Program-made: the position numbers and the translations under genes
Assembly: GCF_030758315.1 (NCBI RefSeq)
Contig: NZ_CP132336.1
Coordinates: 1,674,001 to 1,738,000, forward strand
Origin: Pararhizobium sp. IMCC3301
GTDB taxonomy: Bacteria; Pseudomonadota; Alphaproteobacteria; Rhizobiales; GCA-2746425
Direction: 5' to 3'
Length of the DNA: 64,000 nt
The notes under the pieces: model-generated
Seen by the model: only the letters and a program-made list of their open reading frames with translations
Database searches by the model: none
Told to the model about the DNA's origin: nothing
Shown here: in pieces, positions 20,436 to 30,234 of the stretch
How positions within the stretch are numbered: position 1 is the stretch's first letter
How the letters are laid out: each line of letters starts with the position of its first letter

Positions 20436-21197
20436 TCAGGAAATCAGGGCAGAGATTCTTGGCGCCGTGGTTTTCAGCAACTCGGCAATCCGCTTCCTGG
20501 ATTTTGCAAAGCGGTAGGAGGGCACCGGGACAGACAGCGCATAAATCAATCCCGCGGAATCGCGAAAGCCGAAGCCGACCGCTGACAGTCCTTCGGTATG
20601 TTCATTACAGTCCCAGGCCAGTCCGGTGGTTCGAATTTCTTCCAGTTCGGCGATCAGCGCCGAGAGCGGTTTTTCCGAATGGCTGGCCTTCAATTCCCGC
20701 ACTGCCAGAGCTATCGCCATTTCATCGTCGAGCAGTGCAAGCGCAGCCTTGCCATTTGCTGTCGAAATCAGCGGGAAAGTCTCGCCCACTGCGGACACGG
20801 TCCGCACGCGATGGGTTCCGACGACCTGGTCGACGAACACCATGTGATCGGTGCGAAACACCGCCAGGTCAACCGTTTCACCGCAGCTTTCGGCAATCTC
20901 CTGCAACACCGGTCGCAGCAATTCGGCGGCATCAACGCGCCCCGCCGCCGCCAGTGACTGGATTTCCGGTCCCAGCCGCAGACCGCCCTCGGCCGCCGTA
21001 TTCATGATCAGCTTTTCAGCCAGCAACGCATTGACAATGCGCTGCACCGTAGAGCGCGGCAGACCGACCCGATCGGAAATTTGTCCCAGGCTCAGACCAC
21101 GGTTATCCTGCTTTAACACGCGCAATATCTCGGCAGCCCGCGCAATCACCTGGACCCCCTGACCGGAGGCGGATTTTGCGGGGCGGTCGTGATTCAT
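20436..21197 (-). CDS. IclR family transcriptional regulator
   Basis: A 253-residue IclR regulator from the chosen ATG (GGAAG upstream); a longer frame runs to 21293. The N-terminal winged HTH (about residues 15-75) contains LSLGQISDRVGLPRSTVQRIVNAL, followed by the IclR effector domain with FVDQVVGTHRVRTVSAVGE and NGKAALALL. It is divergent from the cyclase-cupin-SDR catabolic genes, and a 21-bp palindrome sits between them, so it most likely controls that cluster in response to a pathway compound. IclR proteins may repress or activate; which applies here is not shown. Confidence 0.9.
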   Translation of the reverse strand: MNHDRPAKSASGQGVQVIARAAEILRVLKQDNRGLSLGQISDRVGLPRSTVQRIVNALLAEKLIMNTAAEGGLRLGPEIQSLAAAGRVDAAELLRPVLQEIAESCGETVDLAVFRTDHMVFVDQVVGTHRVRTVSAVGETFPLISTANGKAALALLDDEMAIALAVRELKASHSEKPLSALIAELEEIRTTGLAWDCNEHTEGLSAVGFGFRDSAGLIYALSVPVPSYRFAKSRKRIAELLKTTAPRISALIS

Positions 21198-21293
21198 TGG
21201 TTTCTTCCAGACGGACGAATCGGTTGCTGCAGATGACACTTCTATATCCTTATGCCCGTGAATTGGATCATCTGGAAAATTCACCATCTCCAC

Positions 21294-21334
21294 TTGACCG
21301 CATTATGGTACATATGTATCGTAATGCAATACAT
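21294..21334 (+). promoter_or_regulatory. promoter with overlapping IclR-type operator upstream of the cyclase gene
   Basis: TTGACC (21294-21299), 17 bases, TATCGT (21317-21322) gives a fair sigma-70 promoter 50 bases before the cyclase ATG. ATGTAT (21314-21319) and ATACAT (21329-21334), 9 bases apart, form a palindrome covering the -10 box. Its position between the divergent IclR gene and the catabolic operon makes it the best candidate IclR site. Confidence 0.5.
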
Positions 21335-21371
21335 TTTGCAGCATGTTCTGGAATCTTTGGGAGAAGTCATC

Positions 21372-22211
21372 ATGACAATTACAGTTCGCGGTCTTGAGTT
21401 TCAGGACAATCTCGACAACGACATGGGCGTCGAATTCTATAATCTGTCACATCGTTACGGCTTTCAATGCCCCAACTGGCCCTATTTCAAGGACGTCCAG
21501 ATTGAGCGCAAACATTACATGGCAAAGTCTGGCGTGCTCAGCCAGACTCTGACCACCACCATGCATGTCACCACCCATATTGATGCGCCCGCCCATGTTG
21601 TGCCAGGCACACCTTTCATCGATGAGGTGCCGCTGCCGCATTTCTTCGGCTCCGGCCTTGTAGTTTCTATTCCGAAAAGGAAGTGGGAACAGATTACAGC
21701 CGATGATCTGGAAAAGGCCTGTGGCCACGCGATCCGCAAGAACGATGTTCTGATCATCAACACCGGCTGGCACAAGCAGTATGAGGACGGTGACTATTTT
21801 GCTTATTGTCCCGGCCTTGTGCCCTCTGCCGCAGACTGGATGGTGGAAAAGGGCATCAAGGTTGTCGGCCACGATACCCAGGCCAATGATCATCCGCTGG
21901 CAACCGCCATCGGCCCGCAGCGCAATGGCCCGATCCTGCCGCATCTGGAAGCGGAATATAAGGAATGGTCAGGCGGCGTTGACTGGAAAGATGCCTTCCC
22001 GGAATGGGAACCGGTTCACAACAAACTGTTTTCAAACGGTATTCTGGGCATTGAAAATGTTGGCGGCGATCTCGATGCGGTCACCGGCAAACGCTGCACT
22101 TTTGCCTTCTTCCCGTGGAACTGGGATCGCGGCGATGGCTGCATCATCCGCCTTGTCGCCATGATCGACAAGGGTCAGAAATACCGCATCGAACCCGGTG
22201 AGGCATTCTGA
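21372..22211 (+). CDS. cyclase family protein (metal-dependent amide/lactone hydrolase, kynurenine formamidase-like)
   Basis: A 279-residue protein of the cyclase/KynB superfamily (PF04199), metal-dependent hydrolases that open amide or lactone bonds. The metal-binding signature appears as MHVTTHIDAPAHV near residue 60; VLIINTGWHK and VVGHDTQANDHPLA follow. The ATG at 21372 has GGGAGA 8-9 bases upstream; an upstream ATG at 21252 would run through the promoter and is rejected. The stop overlaps the next start by 1 base. Together with the SDR, dehydrogenase and BKACE downstream it likely performs the first ring- or amide-opening step. Confidence 0.85.
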   Translation: MTITVRGLEFQDNLDNDMGVEFYNLSHRYGFQCPNWPYFKDVQIERKHYMAKSGVLSQTLTTTMHVTTHIDAPAHVVPGTPFIDEVPLPHFFGSGLVVSIPKRKWEQITADDLEKACGHAIRKNDVLIINTGWHKQYEDGDYFAYCPGLVPSAADWMVEKGIKVVGHDTQANDHPLATAIGPQRNGPILPHLEAEYKEWSGGVDWKDAFPEWEPVHNKLFSNGILGIENVGGDLDAVTGKRCTFAFFPWNWDRGDGCIIRLVAMIDKGQKYRIEPGEAF

Positions 22212-22573
22212 TGCATCTGAAACGCTTCACCGACGCCGAACCCTATGATGCTCCGAACCATCGGGGCGTCGCCGGTCTGCGTTTGCAGGGTTTTGAACAG
22301 GGCGGGCCGGAAAATCAGTGGATCGGTTATTCACAATTTCTGCCCGGCGGCGGCGCCGGGCCGGATTCCACGCCGTTTGAAAAAGTCTATGTGGTTCTGT
22401 CAGGTGAGCTGTCGATCATCGTGGACGGAGTGGAAACCGTGCTGGGCGCAATGGATTCCTGCACAATCCCACCGGGCGAAGAGCGGGAAATCATCAACCG
22501 CTCGAACCATGTCTGTACTATGCTGGTGGTGATACCCTATCCTGCCGGAACTCGGCCTGGAGCAAAATCATGA
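22211..22573 (+). CDS. cupin domain protein
   Basis: A 120-residue single cupin. The two cupin strands are recognisable as GGGAGPDSTPFEKVYVVLSGELSI and the later IPPGEEREIINRSNHVCTMLVV; only part of the usual metal-binding His set is present, since the first motif lacks the HxH pair. It may therefore be a metal-free or altered cupin, such as an isomerase or binding protein of the pathway. ATG overlaps the cyclase stop by 1 base and its stop overlaps the SDR start by 4, so expression is tightly coupled. Confidence 0.8.
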   Translation: MHLKRFTDAEPYDAPNHRGVAGLRLQGFEQGGPENQWIGYSQFLPGGGAGPDSTPFEKVYVVLSGELSIIVDGVETVLGAMDSCTIPPGEEREIINRSNHVCTMLVVIPYPAGTRPGAKS

Positions 22574-23379
22574 GCTTTGACAATCCTCTTGCCATGTTCA
22601 ATGTCGAAGGCAAGGTTGCGCTGATTACCGGCGCATCGGGCGCATTTGGTGCGGTCGCGGCAAAGGCCCTCGCCGGTGCCGGCTGCAAACTGGTTCTGGC
22701 TGCCGGCAATGCGGCAGCCCTGCAGGACATTGCCGGCGAATGCGAGGCGGCCGGCGCTGAGGTTGAGCCCGTCAACGCAAGGCCGGAAGACGAAGCCGGA
22801 TGTGCCGCGATGATCGATGCAGCGGTGCAGCGGTTCGGCCAGCTCGATATTCTGGTTGTCGCTTCAGGCATGAACAAAGTTGCCAAAATCAAGGATATGG
22901 CTCTGGAAACCTTCACCTCGGTGATGGATGCCAATGTCACGCAATCCTGGATGCTGGCCAAGGCCGCAAGTGTTCAGATGAGCGCACAGATTGAAGCCGG
23001 CACCAGCGACAGAGGCAAGATTGTTCTGGTGTCGTCCGCACGCGGTCTTCTGGGCCACCCGGCGGGCTACACCGCCTATTGCGCTTCCAAAGCGGCAGTG
23101 GATGGCATGACTAAGGCACTTGGCTGCGAACTGGGTCCGACAGGCATCACCGTCAATGCAATTGCTCCAACCGTATTCCGCTCACCCCTTACCGCCTGGA
23201 TGTTCGGCGATACCGACGAAGCCAGGGCTGTGCGCAGCGGTTTTCTGGCCCGTGTCCCGAAAGGCCGGCTTGGCGAACCGGAAGATCTGGTTGGCCCGCT
23301 GTTGTTCCTGGCCTCCAGCGCGTCAGACTTTTACACCGGCCACATTCTCTACGCGGACGGTGGATATACGGCGGGCTAG
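22570..23379 (+). CDS. short-chain dehydrogenase/reductase (SDR)
   Basis: A 269-residue classical SDR, oxidising a hydroxyl with NAD(P). Cofactor motif TGASGAFG is at about residues 19-26; NADLV-like strand LDILVVASGMNKV follows; the catalytic Ser lies in LVSSARG and Tyr-Lys in YCASK. The C-terminus ends in the usual YADGGYTAG. Its TAG stop is formed by the CTAG target of an inserted 262-bp MITE, so the insertion left the protein intact. Before insertion this stop abutted the next gene's ATG. Confidence 0.92.
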   Translation: MSFDNPLAMFNVEGKVALITGASGAFGAVAAKALAGAGCKLVLAAGNAAALQDIAGECEAAGAEVEPVNARPEDEAGCAAMIDAAVQRFGQLDILVVASGMNKVAKIKDMALETFTSVMDANVTQSWMLAKAASVQMSAQIEAGTSDRGKIVLVSSARGLLGHPAGYTAYCASKAAVDGMTKALGCELGPTGITVNAIAPTVFRSPLTAWMFGDTDEARAVRSGFLARVPKGRLGEPEDLVGPLLFLASSASDFYTGHILYADGGYTAG

Positions 23380-23641
23380 GGTCTGTACTCAATTAGGAGG
23401 TGGAATTGGTGAGCTTGATTTTGGACAGAGTTAGGAGCGACGGCGCAGGAAACCGTCTGGTTTTCAAGCCTTTGCGACGACATCCTGGCCAAAAGCAAGC
23501 TCATCGCAAAGCGACGCTGCCAGGAAAGCCCACTTGCCGCTTCACAGATTTTGGAGAGGCAACCAGCCTTACCTGCAATCTGTTCATAGCAGTTGGGCTT
23601 TTCTGGCAGCGCCAATTCAACCTCCTAATTGAGTACAGACC
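23380..23641. mobile_element. 262-bp MITE with 22-bp terminal inverted repeats and CTAG target duplication
   Basis: The left end GGTCTGTACTCAATTAGG is repeated in reverse complement at the right end; the identity spans 22 bp, continuing about 9 bp further with one mismatch. CTAG flanks both ends (23376-23379 and 23642-23645). No transposase is encoded; the internal frames (for example 23400-23645) are not recognisable and end in the repeat in both directions. A CTAG target would suit an IS5-family parent, but TA duplication with a longer repeat cannot be excluded. It separates the SDR and dehydrogenase genes of one operon. Confidence 0.85.
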
Positions 23642-23645
23642 CTAG

Positions 23646-24572
23646 ATGGCAAACAGCTTGCGCAACATAGCGGTCATCGGTGCAGGTCTCATGGGCCACG
23701 GCATCGCTTTGAGCTTTGCCAAGGCCGGCTTTGAAACCCGCGTCCATGATCCCCATGCCGAAACTCTTGAAACGCTGATTGCGCGGGTCACGGACAGCCT
23801 GATTGCCTTAGGTGTCGCAGCCGGGGACACAGCCGGCATCACAGCCCGCATCACGCCCTGCCAAAGCCTCGACGCCGCAGTCAGCAACGCTGATCTGGTG
23901 GTCGAAGCAGCGCCGGAGAAACTGGCGTTGAAGCAGGAAATCTTTGCCCAGATTGAGCCCGCCGTCCCGGCGCAATGCCTGCTGGCCTCCAACACCTCGG
24001 TGATCCCGATCACCAGTATCATGCAGGGGCTGGCCGACCGCTCAAGGGGCCTTGGCACCCATTGGTGGAACCCGCCGCATATGATTCCGCTGGTAGAAGT
24101 GATCCGCACCGAATGGACCACCGATCAGGCGATGGATCAGATGGTCGGCATTCTGACCCAAATCGGCAAAACGCCGGTGCGGGTTGAAAAGGATGTTGCC
24201 GGTTTCATCGGAAACCGCCTGCAGCACGCTCTGTGGCGTGAAGCCATCAGCCTTGTGGAAAAAGGTGTGTGTTCGGCAGAAGCGGTGGATGAAGTCATCA
24301 AAGCTAGTTTCGGGCGCCGTCTGGCGGTCCTTGGACCGTTGGAGAACGCAGATCTTGTCGGCACCGATCTGACCCTCGACATTCACCAGAACGTTCTGGC
24401 GGATCTGGAAGCCAGCGGCGCACCTTCGCCGCTGCTGGAGAGCCTGGTTGCCGAAGGAAAACTCGGCATGAAATCCGGTGAAGGGTTTCGCAAATGGACG
24501 CCGGAAGCTGCAGCAGCAACCCGCCGCCGCGTCACCACACATTTGCAGAAACTCGACACCATACTGGAATAG
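23646..24572 (+). CDS. 3-hydroxyacyl-CoA dehydrogenase family protein (beta-hydroxy acid dehydrogenase)
   Basis: A 308-residue NAD-dependent dehydrogenase of the HCDH/carnitine dehydrogenase fold. The Rossmann GAGLMGHGIA is at residues 12-21, the catalytic His region reads THWWNPPHMIPLVEVI, and FIGNRLQHALWREA starts the C-terminal helical domain. It probably oxidises a beta-hydroxy acid (free or CoA-bound) to the beta-keto acid that the BKACE downstream would cleave. No ribosome site precedes the ATG because the MITE inserted directly before it; translation may be reduced or rely on the new leader. Confidence 0.87.
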   Translation: MANSLRNIAVIGAGLMGHGIALSFAKAGFETRVHDPHAETLETLIARVTDSLIALGVAAGDTAGITARITPCQSLDAAVSNADLVVEAAPEKLALKQEIFAQIEPAVPAQCLLASNTSVIPITSIMQGLADRSRGLGTHWWNPPHMIPLVEVIRTEWTTDQAMDQMVGILTQIGKTPVRVEKDVAGFIGNRLQHALWREAISLVEKGVCSAEAVDEVIKASFGRRLAVLGPLENADLVGTDLTLDIHQNVLADLEASGAPSPLLESLVAEGKLGMKSGEGFRKWTPEAAAATRRRVTTHLQKLDTILE

Positions 24573-24615
24573 TTCACCGGACCTTGGAGGAGGGCCGGAT
24601 TTTAGGAGGAAGACC

Positions 24616-25899
24616 ATGATAAAAAAACCCATTCTGTCCGGAGTCTCACGCCGCACAATTCTTACCGGCCTGGGCGCAACTATTGCCGCTCCGGCAATCC
24701 TGCGCCACAGCCGTGCCTATGCCGCCCACCCGGTTCTAAAAATCGGCCATGTCAGCCCGCGAACCGGGCAGCTTGCCGGCTTTGCCGAGGCTGACGACTT
24801 TGTTCTGGCCGGAATTCAGAAAGCCTTTGCCGGCGGCCTGATGAACAATGGCAAATCCTATGAGGTTGAAATTATCTCAAAGGATTCCCAGTCAAATCCG
24901 AATCGCGCCGCTGAAGTGGCTGCCGAGCTGATCCTCGGCGATGAAGTAGATATCATCGTCGCCGCATCAACGCCCGACACCACCAATCCGGTCGCCGATC
25001 AGGCCGAAATCAATGAAGTCCCCTGCATCACCACAGACTGTCCGTGGCAGCCCTATTTCTTTGGCCGCAACGGCAATCCGGCTGAAGGGTTTGACTACAC
25101 CTATCACTTCTTCTGGGGCCTTGAGGATGTTATCGCCTCCTTCCTCGATCTGTGGGGCTCAAGCGGTGTTGCCAAATCGGTTGGCGGGCTGTTTCCCAAT
25201 GATGCGGACGGCAACGCCTGGGGCGACCCGGAGCTGGGCTTTCCCAAACCCCTGGCCGCTGCCGGATACACCCTGGTTGACCCGGGCCGCTACCAGCCTC
25301 TGACCGATGATTTTTCCTCACAGATTTCCGCTTTCAAGGAAGCCGGCTGTGAAATTGTCACCGGAAACATGATCCCGCCCGACTTTGCCAATTTCTGGTC
25401 GCAGGCAGCACAACAGGGTTTCAATCCGAAAATCGTTACCATCGGCAAAGCCCTGCTGTTCCCCTCGGTCATCAATTCGCTTGGCGAGCGCGCCAACGGC
25501 CTGTCCTCAGAAATCTGGTGGACACCAAATCACCCCTTCGCATCCAGCCTGACAAATGCATCGGCAAAAGCGCTGGCCGACAGTTACACGGCAGAGACCG
25601 GCCGCCCCTGGACCCAGCCAATCGGCTTTAAACATGCACTGTTCGAGGTCACTGCCAACGTGATTTCGCGGGCTGCCGATCTGGATGATCCAGCGGCTAT
25701 CGTCGAGGCAATCCGCACCACAGCACTGGATACCATTGTCGGCAAGGTGGACTGGTCAAACGGTCCGGTGAAAAATGTCACCAAAACACCATTGGTGGCA
25801 GGCCAGTGGCAGAAACAGGGCGATGCATTCGAACTTGTGGTGACGGCCAATGCCAACGCTCCCGAGATCCCTGTTGGGGGTGAGCTGAAACTGCTCTGA
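24616..25899 (+). CDS. branched-chain-type ABC transporter substrate-binding protein
   Basis: A 427-residue periplasmic binding protein of the LivK/Leu-Ile-Val receptor family. It begins with a twin-arginine-like signal (SRRTILTG, then a hydrophobic stretch ending near AYA), then the binding fold with LKIGHVSPRTGQLAGFAEAD. AGGAGGA sits 5 bases before the ATG. Liv-type receptors bind amino acids, amides, urea or aromatic acids; the ligand here is probably the compound handled by the surrounding enzymes. A 12-bp hairpin after its stop may keep its expression above that of the membrane parts. Confidence 0.92.
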   Translation: MIKKPILSGVSRRTILTGLGATIAAPAILRHSRAYAAHPVLKIGHVSPRTGQLAGFAEADDFVLAGIQKAFAGGLMNNGKSYEVEIISKDSQSNPNRAAEVAAELILGDEVDIIVAASTPDTTNPVADQAEINEVPCITTDCPWQPYFFGRNGNPAEGFDYTYHFFWGLEDVIASFLDLWGSSGVAKSVGGLFPNDADGNAWGDPELGFPKPLAAAGYTLVDPGRYQPLTDDFSSQISAFKEAGCEIVTGNMIPPDFANFWSQAAQQGFNPKIVTIGKALLFPSVINSLGERANGLSSEIWWTPNHPFASSLTNASAKALADSYTAETGRPWTQPIGFKHALFEVTANVISRAADLDDPAAIVEAIRTTALDTIVGKVDWSNGPVKNVTKTPLVAGQWQKQGDAFELVVTANANAPEIPVGGELKLL

Positions 25900-25914
25900 T
25901 CTTTTTCAAAACCG

Positions 25915-25942
25915 GCCTCATCGCGCGCCAGCGCGATGAGGC
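25915..25942 (+). terminator. intercistronic stem-loop after the binding-protein gene
   Basis: GCCTCATCGCGC, a GCCA loop, GCGCGATGAGGC: a perfect 12-bp stem with no T run, 15 bases after the binding-protein stop and 15 before the ATPase ATG. It likely stabilises the upstream message or partly blocks transcription. Confidence 0.6.
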
Positions 25943-25957
25943 TCGTGGGAACGCGCC

Positions 25958-26686
25958 ATGTCGACAGTCTTGAAACTGCACAATGTCTCAAAAGCGTTCG
26001 GTGCTGTCACGGTATCCGATGCGCTGAGTTATGAGCTGCAAAGTGGCGAGGCTCTGGGGATTATCGGTCCCAATGGTGCCGGCAAGACATCGATGTTCAA
26101 TCTCATCACCGGCGCCCTGCCCGCTGATGCCGGCACCATCTGGTTTGATGGCCGCGACATCACCCATATGAAAGCCGCCATGCGCTGCCGCAGTGGCATC
26201 GCCCGTTCGTTCCAGATCCCGCAGCCATTCGGCGCCATGAGCGTGTTTGAAAACGCGCTGGTTGCCGCCACCCAGGGCGCTGGCCTTGTCGGCACAAAGG
26301 CTAACAGGCTCTGCCTCGACGCACTGGAACAGACCGGCCTTCTTGCAAAGGCCAATACACTGGCCGGCAATCTGACCCTGCTGGAGCGCAAGCGCCTGGA
26401 ACTGACGCGCGCGCTCTGCGCCAAGCCGAAATTGCTGCTGCTCGACGAGATTGCTGGAGGTCTCACCGAAAAAGAGTGTCATGCGCTGGTTGAAACCATC
26501 CGTGCCATCCGCGCCACCGGCATCAGCATCATCTGGATCGAACATATCGTTCACGCCCTGCTGGCGGTCGTCGACCGTCTTGTCGTCATCGATTTTGGCC
26601 GCAAGATCGCAGACGGCGAGCCGAAATCCATCATGGCAAGCCGCCAGGTCAGGGAAATCTATATGGGGATCGAAGTCGATGGCTGA
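25958..26686 (+). CDS. ABC transporter ATP-binding protein (LivG-type)
   Basis: A 242-residue ATPase of the branched-chain amino acid transporter class. Walker A is GPNGAGKT (residues 36-43), the Q-loop region reads RSFQIPQPFGAMSVFENAL, Walker B is LLLLDEIAGGL, and the switch His is in WIEHIVHAL. The signature motif is degenerate (NLTLLERKRLELTRAL), as in many LivG proteins. It overlaps the next ATPase gene by 8 bases and energises the LivH/LivM-type pore encoded downstream. Confidence 0.92.
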   Translation: MSTVLKLHNVSKAFGAVTVSDALSYELQSGEALGIIGPNGAGKTSMFNLITGALPADAGTIWFDGRDITHMKAAMRCRSGIARSFQIPQPFGAMSVFENALVAATQGAGLVGTKANRLCLDALEQTGLLAKANTLAGNLTLLERKRLELTRALCAKPKLLLLDEIAGGLTEKECHALVETIRAIRATGISIIWIEHIVHALLAVVDRLVVIDFGRKIADGEPKSIMASRQVREIYMGIEVDG

Positions 26687-27383
26687 CCCGATCCTCAGAG
26701 TGGAAAATCTCGACGCCTTTTATGGGGATTTTCAAGCCCTGTTCGGCATTAATTGCCAGATCAATCGTGGCGAGATCATCGCCATTATCGGCGCCAACGG
26801 GGCCGGAAAAACCACGCTGATGCGGGCCATTACCGGTCTGCTCAAAAGCAAGCCGGAGATGGTGCAGTGGCAGCAACGCCCGGTCGGCGCCCTGCGCGCC
26901 GACCAGATCGCCGCTCTTGGCATCGCCATGGTCCCGGAAGGCCGCCAGTTGTTCCCCTCCCTGTCGGTTGAGGAAAATCTGAAGATTGGCGGCCAGATCG
27001 GCCGCACCGGTGCCTGGTCTCTGGAAGCTGTTTTTGAGCTGTTTCCAATCCTCCAGGAGCGCCGCAATGTGCCCTCCACCGCTCTGTCAGGCGGCCAGCA
27101 GCAGATGGTCGCCATCGGCCGCGCGCTGATGGCGAATCCGGATCTGCTGCTGTTTGATGAAATCAGCCTTGGCCTTGCGCCGATCATCATCAAATCAATC
27201 TATGACGCCCTGCCGAAGATCGTCGGCGGCGGCATGACCAGCATCATTGTTGAACAAGATATCGCCAAAGCGCTTTCGGTCTCTGATCGGGTCTACTGCC
27301 TGCAGGAAGGCCGGGTTTCGCTGGAAGGCAAGACCACCTCCGTGTCACGAGAGGATATCAGCCATGCCTATTTCGGAGTATAA
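26679..27383 (+). CDS. ABC transporter ATP-binding protein (LivF-type)
   Basis: A 234-residue second ATPase of the same importer. It shows Walker A GANGAGKTT, the Q-loop segment MVPEGRQLFPSLSVEENL typical of LivF, the signature LSGGQQQMVAIGRAL and Walker B LLLFDEISLGL. The start is the ATG at 26679 inside the end of the LivG-type gene; a longer upstream frame is a different-frame extension over that gene. The permease gene starts 3 bases after its stop. Confidence 0.92.
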   Translation: MADPILRVENLDAFYGDFQALFGINCQINRGEIIAIIGANGAGKTTLMRAITGLLKSKPEMVQWQQRPVGALRADQIAALGIAMVPEGRQLFPSLSVEENLKIGGQIGRTGAWSLEAVFELFPILQERRNVPSTALSGGQQQMVAIGRALMANPDLLLFDEISLGLAPIIIKSIYDALPKIVGGGMTSIIVEQDIAKALSVSDRVYCLQEGRVSLEGKTTSVSREDISHAYFGV

Positions 27384-27386
27384 TCA

Positions 27387-28253
27387 ATGGATTGGGTAAA
27401 TGCAGTTTTGCAAGGCGTGCTGCTGGGTGGTCTGTACGCCCTGTTCGCGGCAGGATTATCTTTGATCTTCGGCGTCATGCGGCTGGTTAACATCGCCCAT
27501 GGCGATTTCATTGTTCTGGCGGCGTTTCTCGGCCTCGTCGTAACCGGCACTCTGGGCCTGCACCCGCTGCTGGCCCTGGTCATTGTGGTGCCGGTGATGG
27601 CGCTGCTGGGCTATGTACTGCAGCGCGGGATTTTGAACCAGACCCTGGGGCGGGACATCCTGCCGCCGCTGCTGGTGACCTTCGGCCTGTCTGTCATATT
27701 GCAGAACGGCCTGCTGGAAATTTTCACTGCCGATCCGCAAAAGCTCAGTGCCGGTGCGTTGGAAACCGCCAGCATACCGCTTGGCGGCGGCCTCAACGCC
27801 GGTGTTCTGCCGGTGCTGACTTTTGCCGCGGCGGTGCTCATAATCGCGCTGTTGCAGTGGGTCTTCTATCGCACTGCGCTTGGCCGCGCTTTTCGCGCCG
27901 TGTCGGACAATCAGGATATCGCCCAGCTGATGGGTCTCAACAAGGCGCACATATTCAGCCTCGCCATGGCGCTGTCCATGGCCGTGATAGCGGTCGCCGG
28001 CATTTTCCTGGCGGTGCGCACCAGCTTTGACCCTTCCGTCGGTCCGGCCCGGCTGATTTTCGGCTTTGAAGCAGTAATCATCGGCGGGCTGGGCAATTTG
28101 TGGGGCACCTTGATTGGCGGCATCATTCTCGGTGTCAGCCAGAATATTGGTGCCCAGATCAATCCCGGCTGGCAGCTTTTGGCGGGTCATATTGCATTTC
28201 TGATTGTTCTGGCGCTGCGCCCACGCGGCCTGTTTCCAAGGATTGACGGATGA
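27387..28253 (+). CDS. branched-chain-type ABC transporter permease (LivH-type)
   Basis: A 288-residue membrane protein with about eight hydrophobic helices. It begins with AVLQGVLLGGLYALFAAGLSLIFG and has LVNIAHGDFIVLAAF, the LivH signature region, and AVSDNQDIAQLMGLN plus GFEAVIIGGLGNLWGTLIGG near the end, the EAA-like ATPase contact. It overlaps the next permease gene by 4 bases. It forms half of the pore of the importer encoded from 24616 onward. Confidence 0.92.
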   Translation: MDWVNAVLQGVLLGGLYALFAAGLSLIFGVMRLVNIAHGDFIVLAAFLGLVVTGTLGLHPLLALVIVVPVMALLGYVLQRGILNQTLGRDILPPLLVTFGLSVILQNGLLEIFTADPQKLSAGALETASIPLGGGLNAGVLPVLTFAAAVLIIALLQWVFYRTALGRAFRAVSDNQDIAQLMGLNKAHIFSLAMALSMAVIAVAGIFLAVRTSFDPSVGPARLIFGFEAVIIGGLGNLWGTLIGGIILGVSQNIGAQINPGWQLLAGHIAFLIVLALRPRGLFPRIDG

Positions 28254-29272
28254 GCGCCGCCCACGATCACATCATCGTCCAGTCCTCCCGCACCAGCCGC
28301 GCGGTCGCCATTGTCGCCGTGCTTCTGCTGGCGTTTCTGGTCGCTGCTCCCTGGTGGGCGGGGCGCGCCGATCTGCGCCTGTTCGGCGAAATCTATCTCT
28401 ATGTCGCACTGGCCTGCCTGTGGAATTTTCTCGCCGGTTACGCCGGTCTGGTCTCGGTTGGCCAGCAGGCCTTTGTCGGCTTTGGCGGCTATTGCCTGTT
28501 TGCGCTGGCCATCTTCCTGGGCGTGCATCCGCTGCTCGCGGTTCCGCTGATTGTGCTGTTGGGCACGCTGGTTTCAATCCCCGTCGCGGTGCTGATCTTC
28601 CGCCTGCGCGGCGCCTATTTTGCCATCGGCACCTGGGTCATCGCCGAGGTTTTCCGCCTTGGCTTTGCCCAGATATCGGCGCTCGGCGGCGGCTCGGGAA
28701 CCAGCCTTCCGGTCGGCATCGTCAAATCGATTGCCGCCTCCCGGTCGGGCCGCGAAAGCGCCGCTTACTGGTCCGCTCTCGGCATCGCCATTATTGTCAT
28801 CGCCAGTGTCTATCTGTTTCTGCGCTCGCGCCAGGGGCTGGCGTTGAAGGCCATCCGCGACAATGAAGCTGCGGCAGAAGCCATGGGTATTGATATCTGG
28901 CGCACCAAGTTTTTCGTCTATATCACCACTGCCGGGCTGACCTCTGCCGTGGGCGCGCTGATCTTTCTGCAGAAGTTGCGGATTTCCCCTGATGCCGCCT
29001 TCAGCGTCAATGACTGGACAGCCTTTGTCATTTTCATTGTGGTGATAGGCGGCATCGGCACCATCGAAGGCCCGATCATCGGTACCATCGTGTTCTTCCT
29101 GCTGCGCGAAACGCTGGCGGATCTGGGCACCGCCTACCTGCTTATTCTCGGCGTCGTCGCCATTGTCGTCATGCTGCGCGCCCCAAGCGGCCTGTGGGGC
29201 TTTGTCAAAGCCCGCACCGGCATTGAACTGTTTCCAACGACACGGCGCGTTGAGCGCCGGCGTCAGACATAA
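28250..29272 (+). CDS. branched-chain-type ABC transporter permease (LivM-type)
   Basis: A 340-residue permease, the LivM-type partner. About ten hydrophobic segments are visible; family marks are FLAGYAGLVSVGQQAFVGFG, RLRGAYFAIGTWVIAEVFRL, AIRDNEAAAEAMGID and VVIGGIGTIEGPIIG. It starts within the LivH-type stop (ATGA) and is followed after 23 bases by the BKACE gene, so transport and enzyme genes appear to share one transcript. Confidence 0.92.
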   Translation: MSAAHDHIIVQSSRTSRAVAIVAVLLLAFLVAAPWWAGRADLRLFGEIYLYVALACLWNFLAGYAGLVSVGQQAFVGFGGYCLFALAIFLGVHPLLAVPLIVLLGTLVSIPVAVLIFRLRGAYFAIGTWVIAEVFRLGFAQISALGGGSGTSLPVGIVKSIAASRSGRESAAYWSALGIAIIVIASVYLFLRSRQGLALKAIRDNEAAAEAMGIDIWRTKFFVYITTAGLTSAVGALIFLQKLRISPDAAFSVNDWTAFVIFIVVIGGIGTIEGPIIGTIVFFLLRETLADLGTAYLLILGVVAIVVMLRAPSGLWGFVKARTGIELFPTTRRVERRRQT

Positions 29273-29295
29273 AATTCACCTGAACGGAGGCCGAA

Positions 29296-30234
29296 ATGGC
29301 TAAAAAGCAGAAGAAAACCATCATCACCTGCGCCATTACCGGTGCCATTCACACCCCGACCATGTCGGACGCCCTGCCCTTTACGCCTGAAGACATCGCC
29401 GATCAGGCAATTGCCGCATCTGCAGCAGGGGCCTCGATCCTGCATCTGCATGCGCGCCGGCCCGATGATGGCGGGGTCTCCATCGACCCGGAGCATTTCA
29501 AACGCTTTTTGCCGGTCATCAAACAGGCCACGGATGCGGTGATCAATGTCTCTACCGGCGGCAGTCTTCTGACCACCATGGAAGAACGCATTGCGCCCGC
29601 AAAATGGGCCTCGCCGGAAATGTGCTCGCTCAATATGGGGTCGATGAATTTTTCGTTCCATCCTCTGGCCGAGCGCTACAAGACCTGGAAATTCGACTGG
29701 GAAGAAGATTATGTGCGCAATTCCGATGGCTACATCTTTCGCAACACCTTTGCCGATATCGGCTTTGTGGCGCGGCAACTTGGCGAGGAACACAACGTCA
29801 AATTCGAGCATGAATGCTACGATGTCGGGCATCTCTACAATCTGAAATTCTGCATGGATACCGGTCTGTTCAAAGCCCCGGTTTTCATCCAGTTCATTTT
29901 CGGCATTCTTGGCGGCATCGGCCCGGACATTGACAATCTGATCTTCATGAAGCGCACTGCCGACCGCCTGTTCGGCGATGATTATCAATGGTCGGTGCTG
30001 GGCGCGGGCGGTGCACAAATGCCATTTGCCACCACCGCCAGCCAGATGGGCGGCAATGTCCGCGTCGGGCTGGAGGATTCCCTGTTCATCGAGCGCGGCA
30101 AATTGGCCAGTTCCAACGCCGACCAGGTAACAAAAATCCGCCGCATCATCGAAGATCTCGGCTGCCAGGTGGCAACACCGGATGAAGCCCGCGAAATGCT
30201 CGACCTGAAAGGCGCCGACCGAACCGGGTTTTAG
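29296..30234 (+). CDS. beta-keto acid cleavage enzyme (BKACE, DUF849)
   Basis: A 312-residue Zn-dependent enzyme of the BKACE family, the type member being 3-keto-5-aminohexanoate cleavage enzyme (Kce). Members condense a beta-keto acid with acetyl-CoA and release acetoacetate plus a new acyl-CoA. Seen are ITGAIHTPTMS at the N-terminus (metal-binding His in the first strand), ILHLHARRPDDGG with the second His pair, and INVSTGGS. CGGAGG lies 5 bases before the ATG. As last gene of the IclR-linked cluster it would end the pathway. Substrates include carnitine-, lysine- and betaine-derived keto acids; the one used here is unknown. Confidence 0.92.
   Translation: MAKKQKKTIITCAITGAIHTPTMSDALPFTPEDIADQAIAASAAGASILHLHARRPDDGGVSIDPEHFKRFLPVIKQATDAVINVSTGGSLLTTMEERIAPAKWASPEMCSLNMGSMNFSFHPLAERYKTWKFDWEEDYVRNSDGYIFRNTFADIGFVARQLGEEHNVKFEHECYDVGHLYNLKFCMDTGLFKAPVFIQFIFGILGGIGPDIDNLIFMKRTADRLFGDDYQWSVLGAGGAQMPFATTASQMGGNVRVGLEDSLFIERGKLASSNADQVTKIRRIIEDLGCQVATPDEAREMLDLKGADRTGF

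Follow-up and report, generated by a model that had tools for sequence, protein, structure and literature searches.

The window analysed here, 64,000 nucleotides of Pararhizobium sp. IMCC3301 (positions 1674001-1738000 of a 4.58-Mb single-contig genome), carries at 20436-30234 a divergent arrangement in which a minus-strand gene for an IclR-family regulator lies opposite a plus-strand run of ten genes. In order, these encode a cyclase-family hydrolase, a small cupin, a short-chain dehydrogenase/reductase (SDR), a dehydrogenase of the 3-hydroxyacyl-CoA dehydrogenase (HCDH) type, a periplasmic receptor, LivG, LivF, LivH, LivM and a BKACE. With its reactions read by homology, the operon very probably serves IclR-controlled uptake and degradation of phloroglucinol, a phenol of plants and seaweeds, by the reductive route of Clostridium scatologenes. 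The gene set is real, conserved and explained: it is a member of a known pathway with lineage-specific features, not a new pathway. A preliminary description had named these genes in this order, and all are present in the open reading frame (ORF) lists and in Pfam and NCBIfam searches. It had left the island unassigned and possibly a new pathway, a view that gives way to the fit with published reductive phloroglucinol degradation (PMC10470551).

In C. scatologenes, the same four enzyme families degrade phloroglucinol, as PMC10470551 reports from purified enzymes, liquid chromatography-mass spectrometry, growth and induced expression. They are a phloroglucinol reductase (PGR, an SDR), a dihydrophloroglucinol cyclohydrolase (DPGC, of the cyclase family and with Mn-dependent activity), an (S)-3-hydroxy-5-oxohexanoate dehydrogenase (TfD), which is annotated as a 3-hydroxyacyl-CoA dehydrogenase, and a triacetate acetoacetate-lyase (TAL, of the BKACE family), and as in the window they are co-located with a transporter and a regulator; proteins of the C. 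scatologenes cluster are listed there under accessions AKA68207, AKA68208, AKA68213 and AKA68216. That all four families stand in one operon here, and recur together, argues for the assignment. The same source reports cluster carriers among marine alpha- and gammaproteobacteria, rhizobia, Rubrivivax, Mycobacterium and others; since marine alphaproteobacteria are already included, our assignment is not new in kind.

We propose a model where a Liv-type ATP-binding cassette (ABC) importer would bring in phloroglucinol or a close phenol, and the SDR would convert phloroglucinol, as its keto tautomer, to dihydrophloroglucinol by reduction. Hydrolytic retro-Claisen C-C cleavage by the cyclase-family enzyme would then open this cyclic dione to (S)-3-hydroxy-5-oxohexanoate, which the HCDH-type enzyme would oxidise to triacetate (3,5-dioxohexanoate). 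With acetyl-CoA, BKACE would split triacetate into acetoacetate and acetoacetyl-CoA. Ring opening by the cyclase had been foreseen in the preliminary description, but of an amide or lactone, whereas what is cleaved is most likely a carbon-carbon bond in a cyclic 1,3-dione. Oxidation of a hydroxyl to a beta-keto acid had been offered to either dehydrogenase; homology keeps it for the HCDH-type enzyme and makes the SDR most likely the first-acting ring reductase, while the proposed BKACE cleavage of a beta-keto acid with acetyl-CoA agrees with homology. Acetoacetate would perhaps be activated by a PcaI/ScoA-family CoA-transferase elsewhere in the genome, where one subunit scores above cut-off, although this enzyme may take 3-oxoadipate instead.

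The gene set recurs well beyond this genome. An alignment of nine cyclase sequences, used as a profile against named genome contigs, matched at least 586 stretches, at least 517 of them confirmed relatives, and our locus counts refer to the best 80 of these, a sample biased toward close relatives of the window in which a number of contigs end early. With per-gene identity thresholds fixed in the script after a smaller comparison, the cupin was present at 78 of the 80 loci, the SDR and HCDH at 77 each, IclR at 75, the receptor at 70, LivG at 68, LivF at 67, LivH and LivM at 66 each, and a BKACE resembling that of the window at 57. The same gene set around the cyclase in 80 loci and on plasmids is not chance. 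One conserved catabolic unit, as the genes had been described, is what these loci hold, and co-occurrence in other genomes, set beforehand as the check on that claim, is strong.

The full set is found again in three genomes of the same genus (G002-G004), in G026 and G740, on a Sinorhizobium BG8 plasmid with IclR at the opposite end, and on a Pacificitalea manganoxidans plasmid with a metallo-beta-lactamase (MBL)-fold hydrolase gene inserted after the cyclase. The Aminobacter sp. MSH1 plasmid likewise has IclR, cyclase, cupin, SDR, HCDH, Liv and BKACE, with the MBL-fold gene after the HCDH and no receptor match in line. On pLA3 of Novosphingobium pentaromativorans, cyclase, cupin, SDR, HCDH and BKACE keep the same order, but a major facilitator superfamily transporter replaces the Liv importer, a TetR-family gene lies upstream and there is no IclR match. 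G380 has no Liv or BKACE gene nearby, G437 has weak Liv matches only, and Mycobacterium riyadhense carries SDR, a dehydrogenase fragment, cyclase, cupin, a short BKACE and IclR. By taxon, and with the own genome counted each time, the cyclase occurs in 4 of 5 genomes of the family, all of one genus, in 4 of 385 of the class (E<=1e-40) and in 8 of 398 of the phylum (E<=1e-30), one of these being just 34% identical.

Residue patterns tie the cyclase and the dehydrogenase to their C. scatologenes counterparts. In CsDPGC, a Trp20/Tyr22 pair replaces Ile32/Leu34 of isatin hydrolase (PMC10470551). The window cyclase has W36-x-Y38, which was matched to CsDPGC by this spacing and was found in nine of nine and then in 80 of 80 loci; the HxxxHxDxxxH motif is likewise in all 80 cyclases. 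For CsTfD, the catalytic residues are S122/H143/N194 and two CoA-binding residues are reported missing (PMC10470551). The window enzyme shares this pattern, with S118/H139/N190 at the same intervals of 21 and 51, and with Val and Gly at the CoA-binding Lys56 and Asn221 positions in an alignment with the 3-hydroxybutyryl-CoA dehydrogenase 6aa8. H139 is present in 76 of 77 loci and N190 in 75 of them, with no letters at the position in the remainder, and the Lys56-equivalent position holds varied residues and never Lys; for Ser this count took S115 of the SNTS stretch instead of S118, and it did not include the Gly column.

Further cyclase-family genes exist outside the clusters. Each of the three same-genus genomes (L006-L011) has two extra adjacent ones elsewhere, with identities to the window cyclase of about 50% and 41%, and in the own genome a further match is partial and only 33% identical.

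A carnitine-like or branched-chain 3-hydroxy acid pathway would share the layout of an HCDH-type dehydrogenase, a BKACE and a Liv importer, and carnitine-like logic had been considered for this island. We consider it highly improbable. A carnitine-type pathway was rejected on the HCDH-type enzyme, which scores 163 bits (NF005716) and 136.5 bits (NF005471) with the two carnitine 3-dehydrogenase models against cut-offs of 592 and 414; the BKACE passes NF053538, the model for 3,5-dioxohexanoate:acetyl-CoA acetone transferase (525.9 bits, cut-off 430), and such a pathway has no role for the cyclase or for a reductase-type SDR.

For phloroglucinol itself, the SDR is informative. Its closest solved relative is 5g4k (185 bits; the next other PDB entry reaches 134 bits), an entry that, with 5g4l, we take to be the phloroglucinol reductase of Clostridium sp. 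ATCC BAA-442, its PDB name reading only SDR-family oxidoreductase. Common to both proteins is a TVFRSxLTxWMF stretch; 76 of 77 loci have letters over it, and in these it is invariant except for a variable ninth position and F or Y at the last.

Several observations weigh against the phloroglucinol assignment, and the first concern this same SDR. The published NADPH motif TR(S/N) is absent, the Arg of 5g4k aligning with Gly46 of the window enzyme, and none of 77 locus SDRs has Arg at this position (Gly in 74, Ala in two and Ser in one); the direct comparison partners were one PDB reductase and the published C. scatologenes residue numbers. In the BKACE, the KCE Glu14 position, which is Trp16 in CsTAL (PMC10470551), is Ile18 in 57 of 57 sequences, so that Glu is absent but the CsTAL Trp is not matched, and the BKACE of the Mycobacterium cluster belongs to a shorter type than the window protein. 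No BKACE stands at the expected place in 10 of the 23 loci without a window-like one; the gene-by-gene listing covered these ten, with visible sequence beyond that place of about 1.2 kb in L112 and a longer stretch in each of the others. A 31% BKACE does occur in L098, also among the ten, but on the opposite side of the cyclase. The remaining 13 lay outside the listing. The cupin is nearly as constant as the cyclase yet has no assigned step in the pathway. A search of the own genome with PF18089 (phloretin/diacetylphloroglucinol hydrolase) gave no match, and the same search matched no control either.

The BKACE model also needs care, which adds to these points. One of four other full-length BKACE places in the own genome passes NF053538 as well, with 544 bits. 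This paralogue (G000:C1:1110780-1111670; L122/L130) is of the long type and 56% identical to the window BKACE. In a tree the window BKACE belongs to a group of 57 rows from which the paralogue is separate, the order of the paralogue relative to the Novosphingobium, G649 and Aminobacter cluster BKACEs not being resolved. Its neighbours, a FabG-like SDR and a protein that resembles a dehydratase far below cut-off, give no further clue to substrate. We therefore no longer take NF053538, a broad model that a paralogue passes with a higher score, as decisive: by itself it does not settle the BKACE substrate.

The same chemistry could act on another meta-polyhydroxylated ring or cyclic 1,3-dione, such as phloroglucinol carrying a carboxyl, sulfate or methyl group, and the cupin would then supply an extra step. 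The near-constant cupin speaks for this, since a term search of the main text of PMC10470551, which leaves its supplements outside, finds neither "cupin" nor "ABC transporter". So do sulfatase-like genes in 12 of 80 neighbourhoods and Amidohydro_2-like genes in five. Nonetheless, the SDR shares its TVFRSxLTxWMF stretch with 5g4k, the cyclase Trp/Tyr pair and the BKACE model agree with the plain route, and the window operon has no sulfatase or amidohydrolase, so we hold a related ring to be distinctly unlikely as the substrate.

One representative of each of these neighbour genes was profile-scanned. The sulfatase-like gene follows LivM directly, at the expected BKACE place, in L061, L079 and L080. 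The Amidohydro_2-like gene lies near the cyclase or HCDH in L053, L076, L082, L096 and L110; it is reminiscent, we presume, of dihydroxybenzoate decarboxylases, and its enzyme could feed phloroglucinol carboxylate into the pathway.

Taking phloroglucinol again as the substrate, the window version differs from the C. scatologenes cluster in its extras: an importer of its own of the ABC (Liv) type, where PMC10470551 gives a "major family transporter", an IclR regulator, an added small cupin and a reductase predicted to be NADH-preferring, beside the BKACE Ile in place of Trp16. Because the SDR lacks the NADPH Arg, it probably prefers NADH. The HCDH-type enzyme has Asp35 at the end of its second strand, conserved in 75 of 77 loci, which we take as a sign of NAD(H) use. 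From these residues, both redox steps may be NAD(H)-linked, and the hydride spent in the first step would be returned in the third, so that the redox cancels. The genome also differs in carrying a CtaD-type oxidase subunit, above cut-off, which suggests a host that respires oxygen, and this alphaproteobacterium is probably aerobic.

Metal-binding cupin enzymes use HxH...E...H ligands. In the window cupin the canonical HxH/H ligands are absent, with D52xT54, E57 and R92 at the matching positions. Invariant across the 78 locus cupins and the window are Y12, H17, R24, W37, D52, E57, K58, R92 and N96; among distant cupins in the alignment, those of Mycobacterium and G649 lack D52 and that of Novosphingobium lacks E57, and R92 is kept in all seven. 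Against solved structures the cupin has one weak match only, the uncharacterised protein 3lwc, and against NCBIfam a single match below cut-off. Our guess is a non-metal binding or tautomerase role. It is tempting to speculate, as a tentative idea that we think possible but doubtful, that aerobes hold their own branch of the pathway, with an NADH-linked, redox-balanced reductase and dehydrogenase, a phenol ABC importer and an extra metal-free cupin step, for example keto-enol tautomerisation of phloroglucinol or its dihydro product.

With this reading, a gene set that looks unassigned at first sight and is shared by many alphaproteobacteria from sea and soil gains a likely role. Brown-algal phlorotannins are built from phloroglucinol, which makes the operon a candidate marker of bacteria that draw carbon from seaweed or plant polyphenols, the host here apparently having an oxidase. 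Strain names of some carriers (Alg231_04, Alg240-R146) suggest algal isolates, and the marine strain Roseibium aggregatum IAM 12614 (L052) has the same operon.

Genes were called from ORF lists with Pfam and NCBIfam profile searches, and the starts of IclR, cyclase, receptor and LivF were corrected by reading translations (Table 1). All reading frames are intact, and the run is tight with one exception: about 270 bp separate SDR from HCDH, and this gap is filled by a miniature inverted-repeat transposable element (MITE).

Table 1. Features of the predicted phloroglucinol operon, in positions of the window
Feature	Position	Strand	Basis
IclR-family regulator	20436..21197	-	Pfam IclR_C 122 bits and HTH_IclR; longest ORF start 21293, probable start 21197
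Candidate IclR operator ACCGCATTATGGT	21297..21309		Pattern scan of upstream regions
Cyclase-family hydrolase, predicted DPGC	21372..22211	+	PF04199 116 bits; corrected start 21372
Small cupin	22211..22573	+	Cupin_2 43.9 bits
SDR, predicted phloroglucinol reductase	22570..23379	+	adh_short_C2; best PDB match 5g4k
MITE	23376..23645		34-bp terminal inverted repeats
3HCDH-type dehydrogenase, predicted TfD	23646..24572	+	3HCDH_N 184 bits, 3HCDH
Periplasmic substrate-binding protein (receptor)	24616..25899	+	Peripla_BP_6 153 bits; corrected start 24616
LivG-like ATPase	25958..26686	+	ABC_tran, Pfam/NCBIfam
LivF-like ATPase	26676..27383	+	ABC_tran, Pfam/NCBIfam; corrected start 26676
LivH-like permease	27387..28253	+	BPD_transp_2
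LivM-like permease	28250..29272	+	NCBIfam match; no row in Pfam search
BKACE, predicted triacetate (3,5-dioxohexanoate) acetoacetate-lyase	29296..30234	+	PF05853 348 bits; NCBIfam NF053538 525.9 bits

The MITE sits exactly where the SDR ends and the HCDH begins, a junction that measures 0-3 bp in the three relatives of the same genus and in the Pacificitalea plasmid cluster. Its terminal repeats are 97% complementary, with CTAG at both ends of the window copy, and the genome holds four near-full copies of 91-100% identity, this one included (the others at G000:C1:4180002-4180268, 1400906-1401172 and 2695152-2695417), plus partial ones. The insertion might uncouple HCDH, receptor, Liv genes and BKACE from the SDR and leave the pathway weak or silent. 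With the short junction of the four relatives interrupted and no clear Shine-Dalgarno sequence just upstream of the HCDH ATG, such impairment has a small but real chance; every frame is intact and transcription through the MITE is possible, which speak against it. An impaired operon would still be compatible with phloroglucinol degradation as its function.

In the importer, the Liv names are given by resemblance, as the NCBIfam Liv models score below their cut-offs. The receptor has a twin-Arg-like N-terminus; against PDB sequences it gave no match at E<=1e-8, and solved structures offer no substrate clue.

The element ACCGCATTATGGT lies in the divergent IclR/cyclase region and overlaps a TTGACC -35-like box at 21294-21299. 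Allowing up to three mismatches, we find it in 59 of 65 upstream regions, one from the window and the rest from 64 of the 80 loci, vs 26 of 325 mononucleotide-shuffled ones. As the pattern was drawn from the same data and the loci are related, we treat the operator as a lead; an exact-palindrome scan gave a weak signal.

The flanks are housekeeping, with pyrophosphatase and MgtE on the left and tRNA-Leu and LipB on the right, and MgtE adjoins the cluster also in each of the three genomes of the same genus that were compared. The cluster dehydrogenase of the Mycobacterium riyadhense plasmid (L023:11339-11956) is an open frame with no listed gene, its N-terminal and middle parts missing in the alignment. 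L117, a contig titled Euryarchaeota archaeon, holds a typical alphaproteobacterial cluster with a cyclase 89% identical to that of the window, probably a binning error. In favour of the phloroglucinol assignment, 6 of 80 loci have intradiol dioxygenase genes in the cluster neighbourhood (one representative profile-scanned), and on the Aminobacter plasmid a maleylacetate reductase and an intradiol dioxygenase are found upstream of the cluster.

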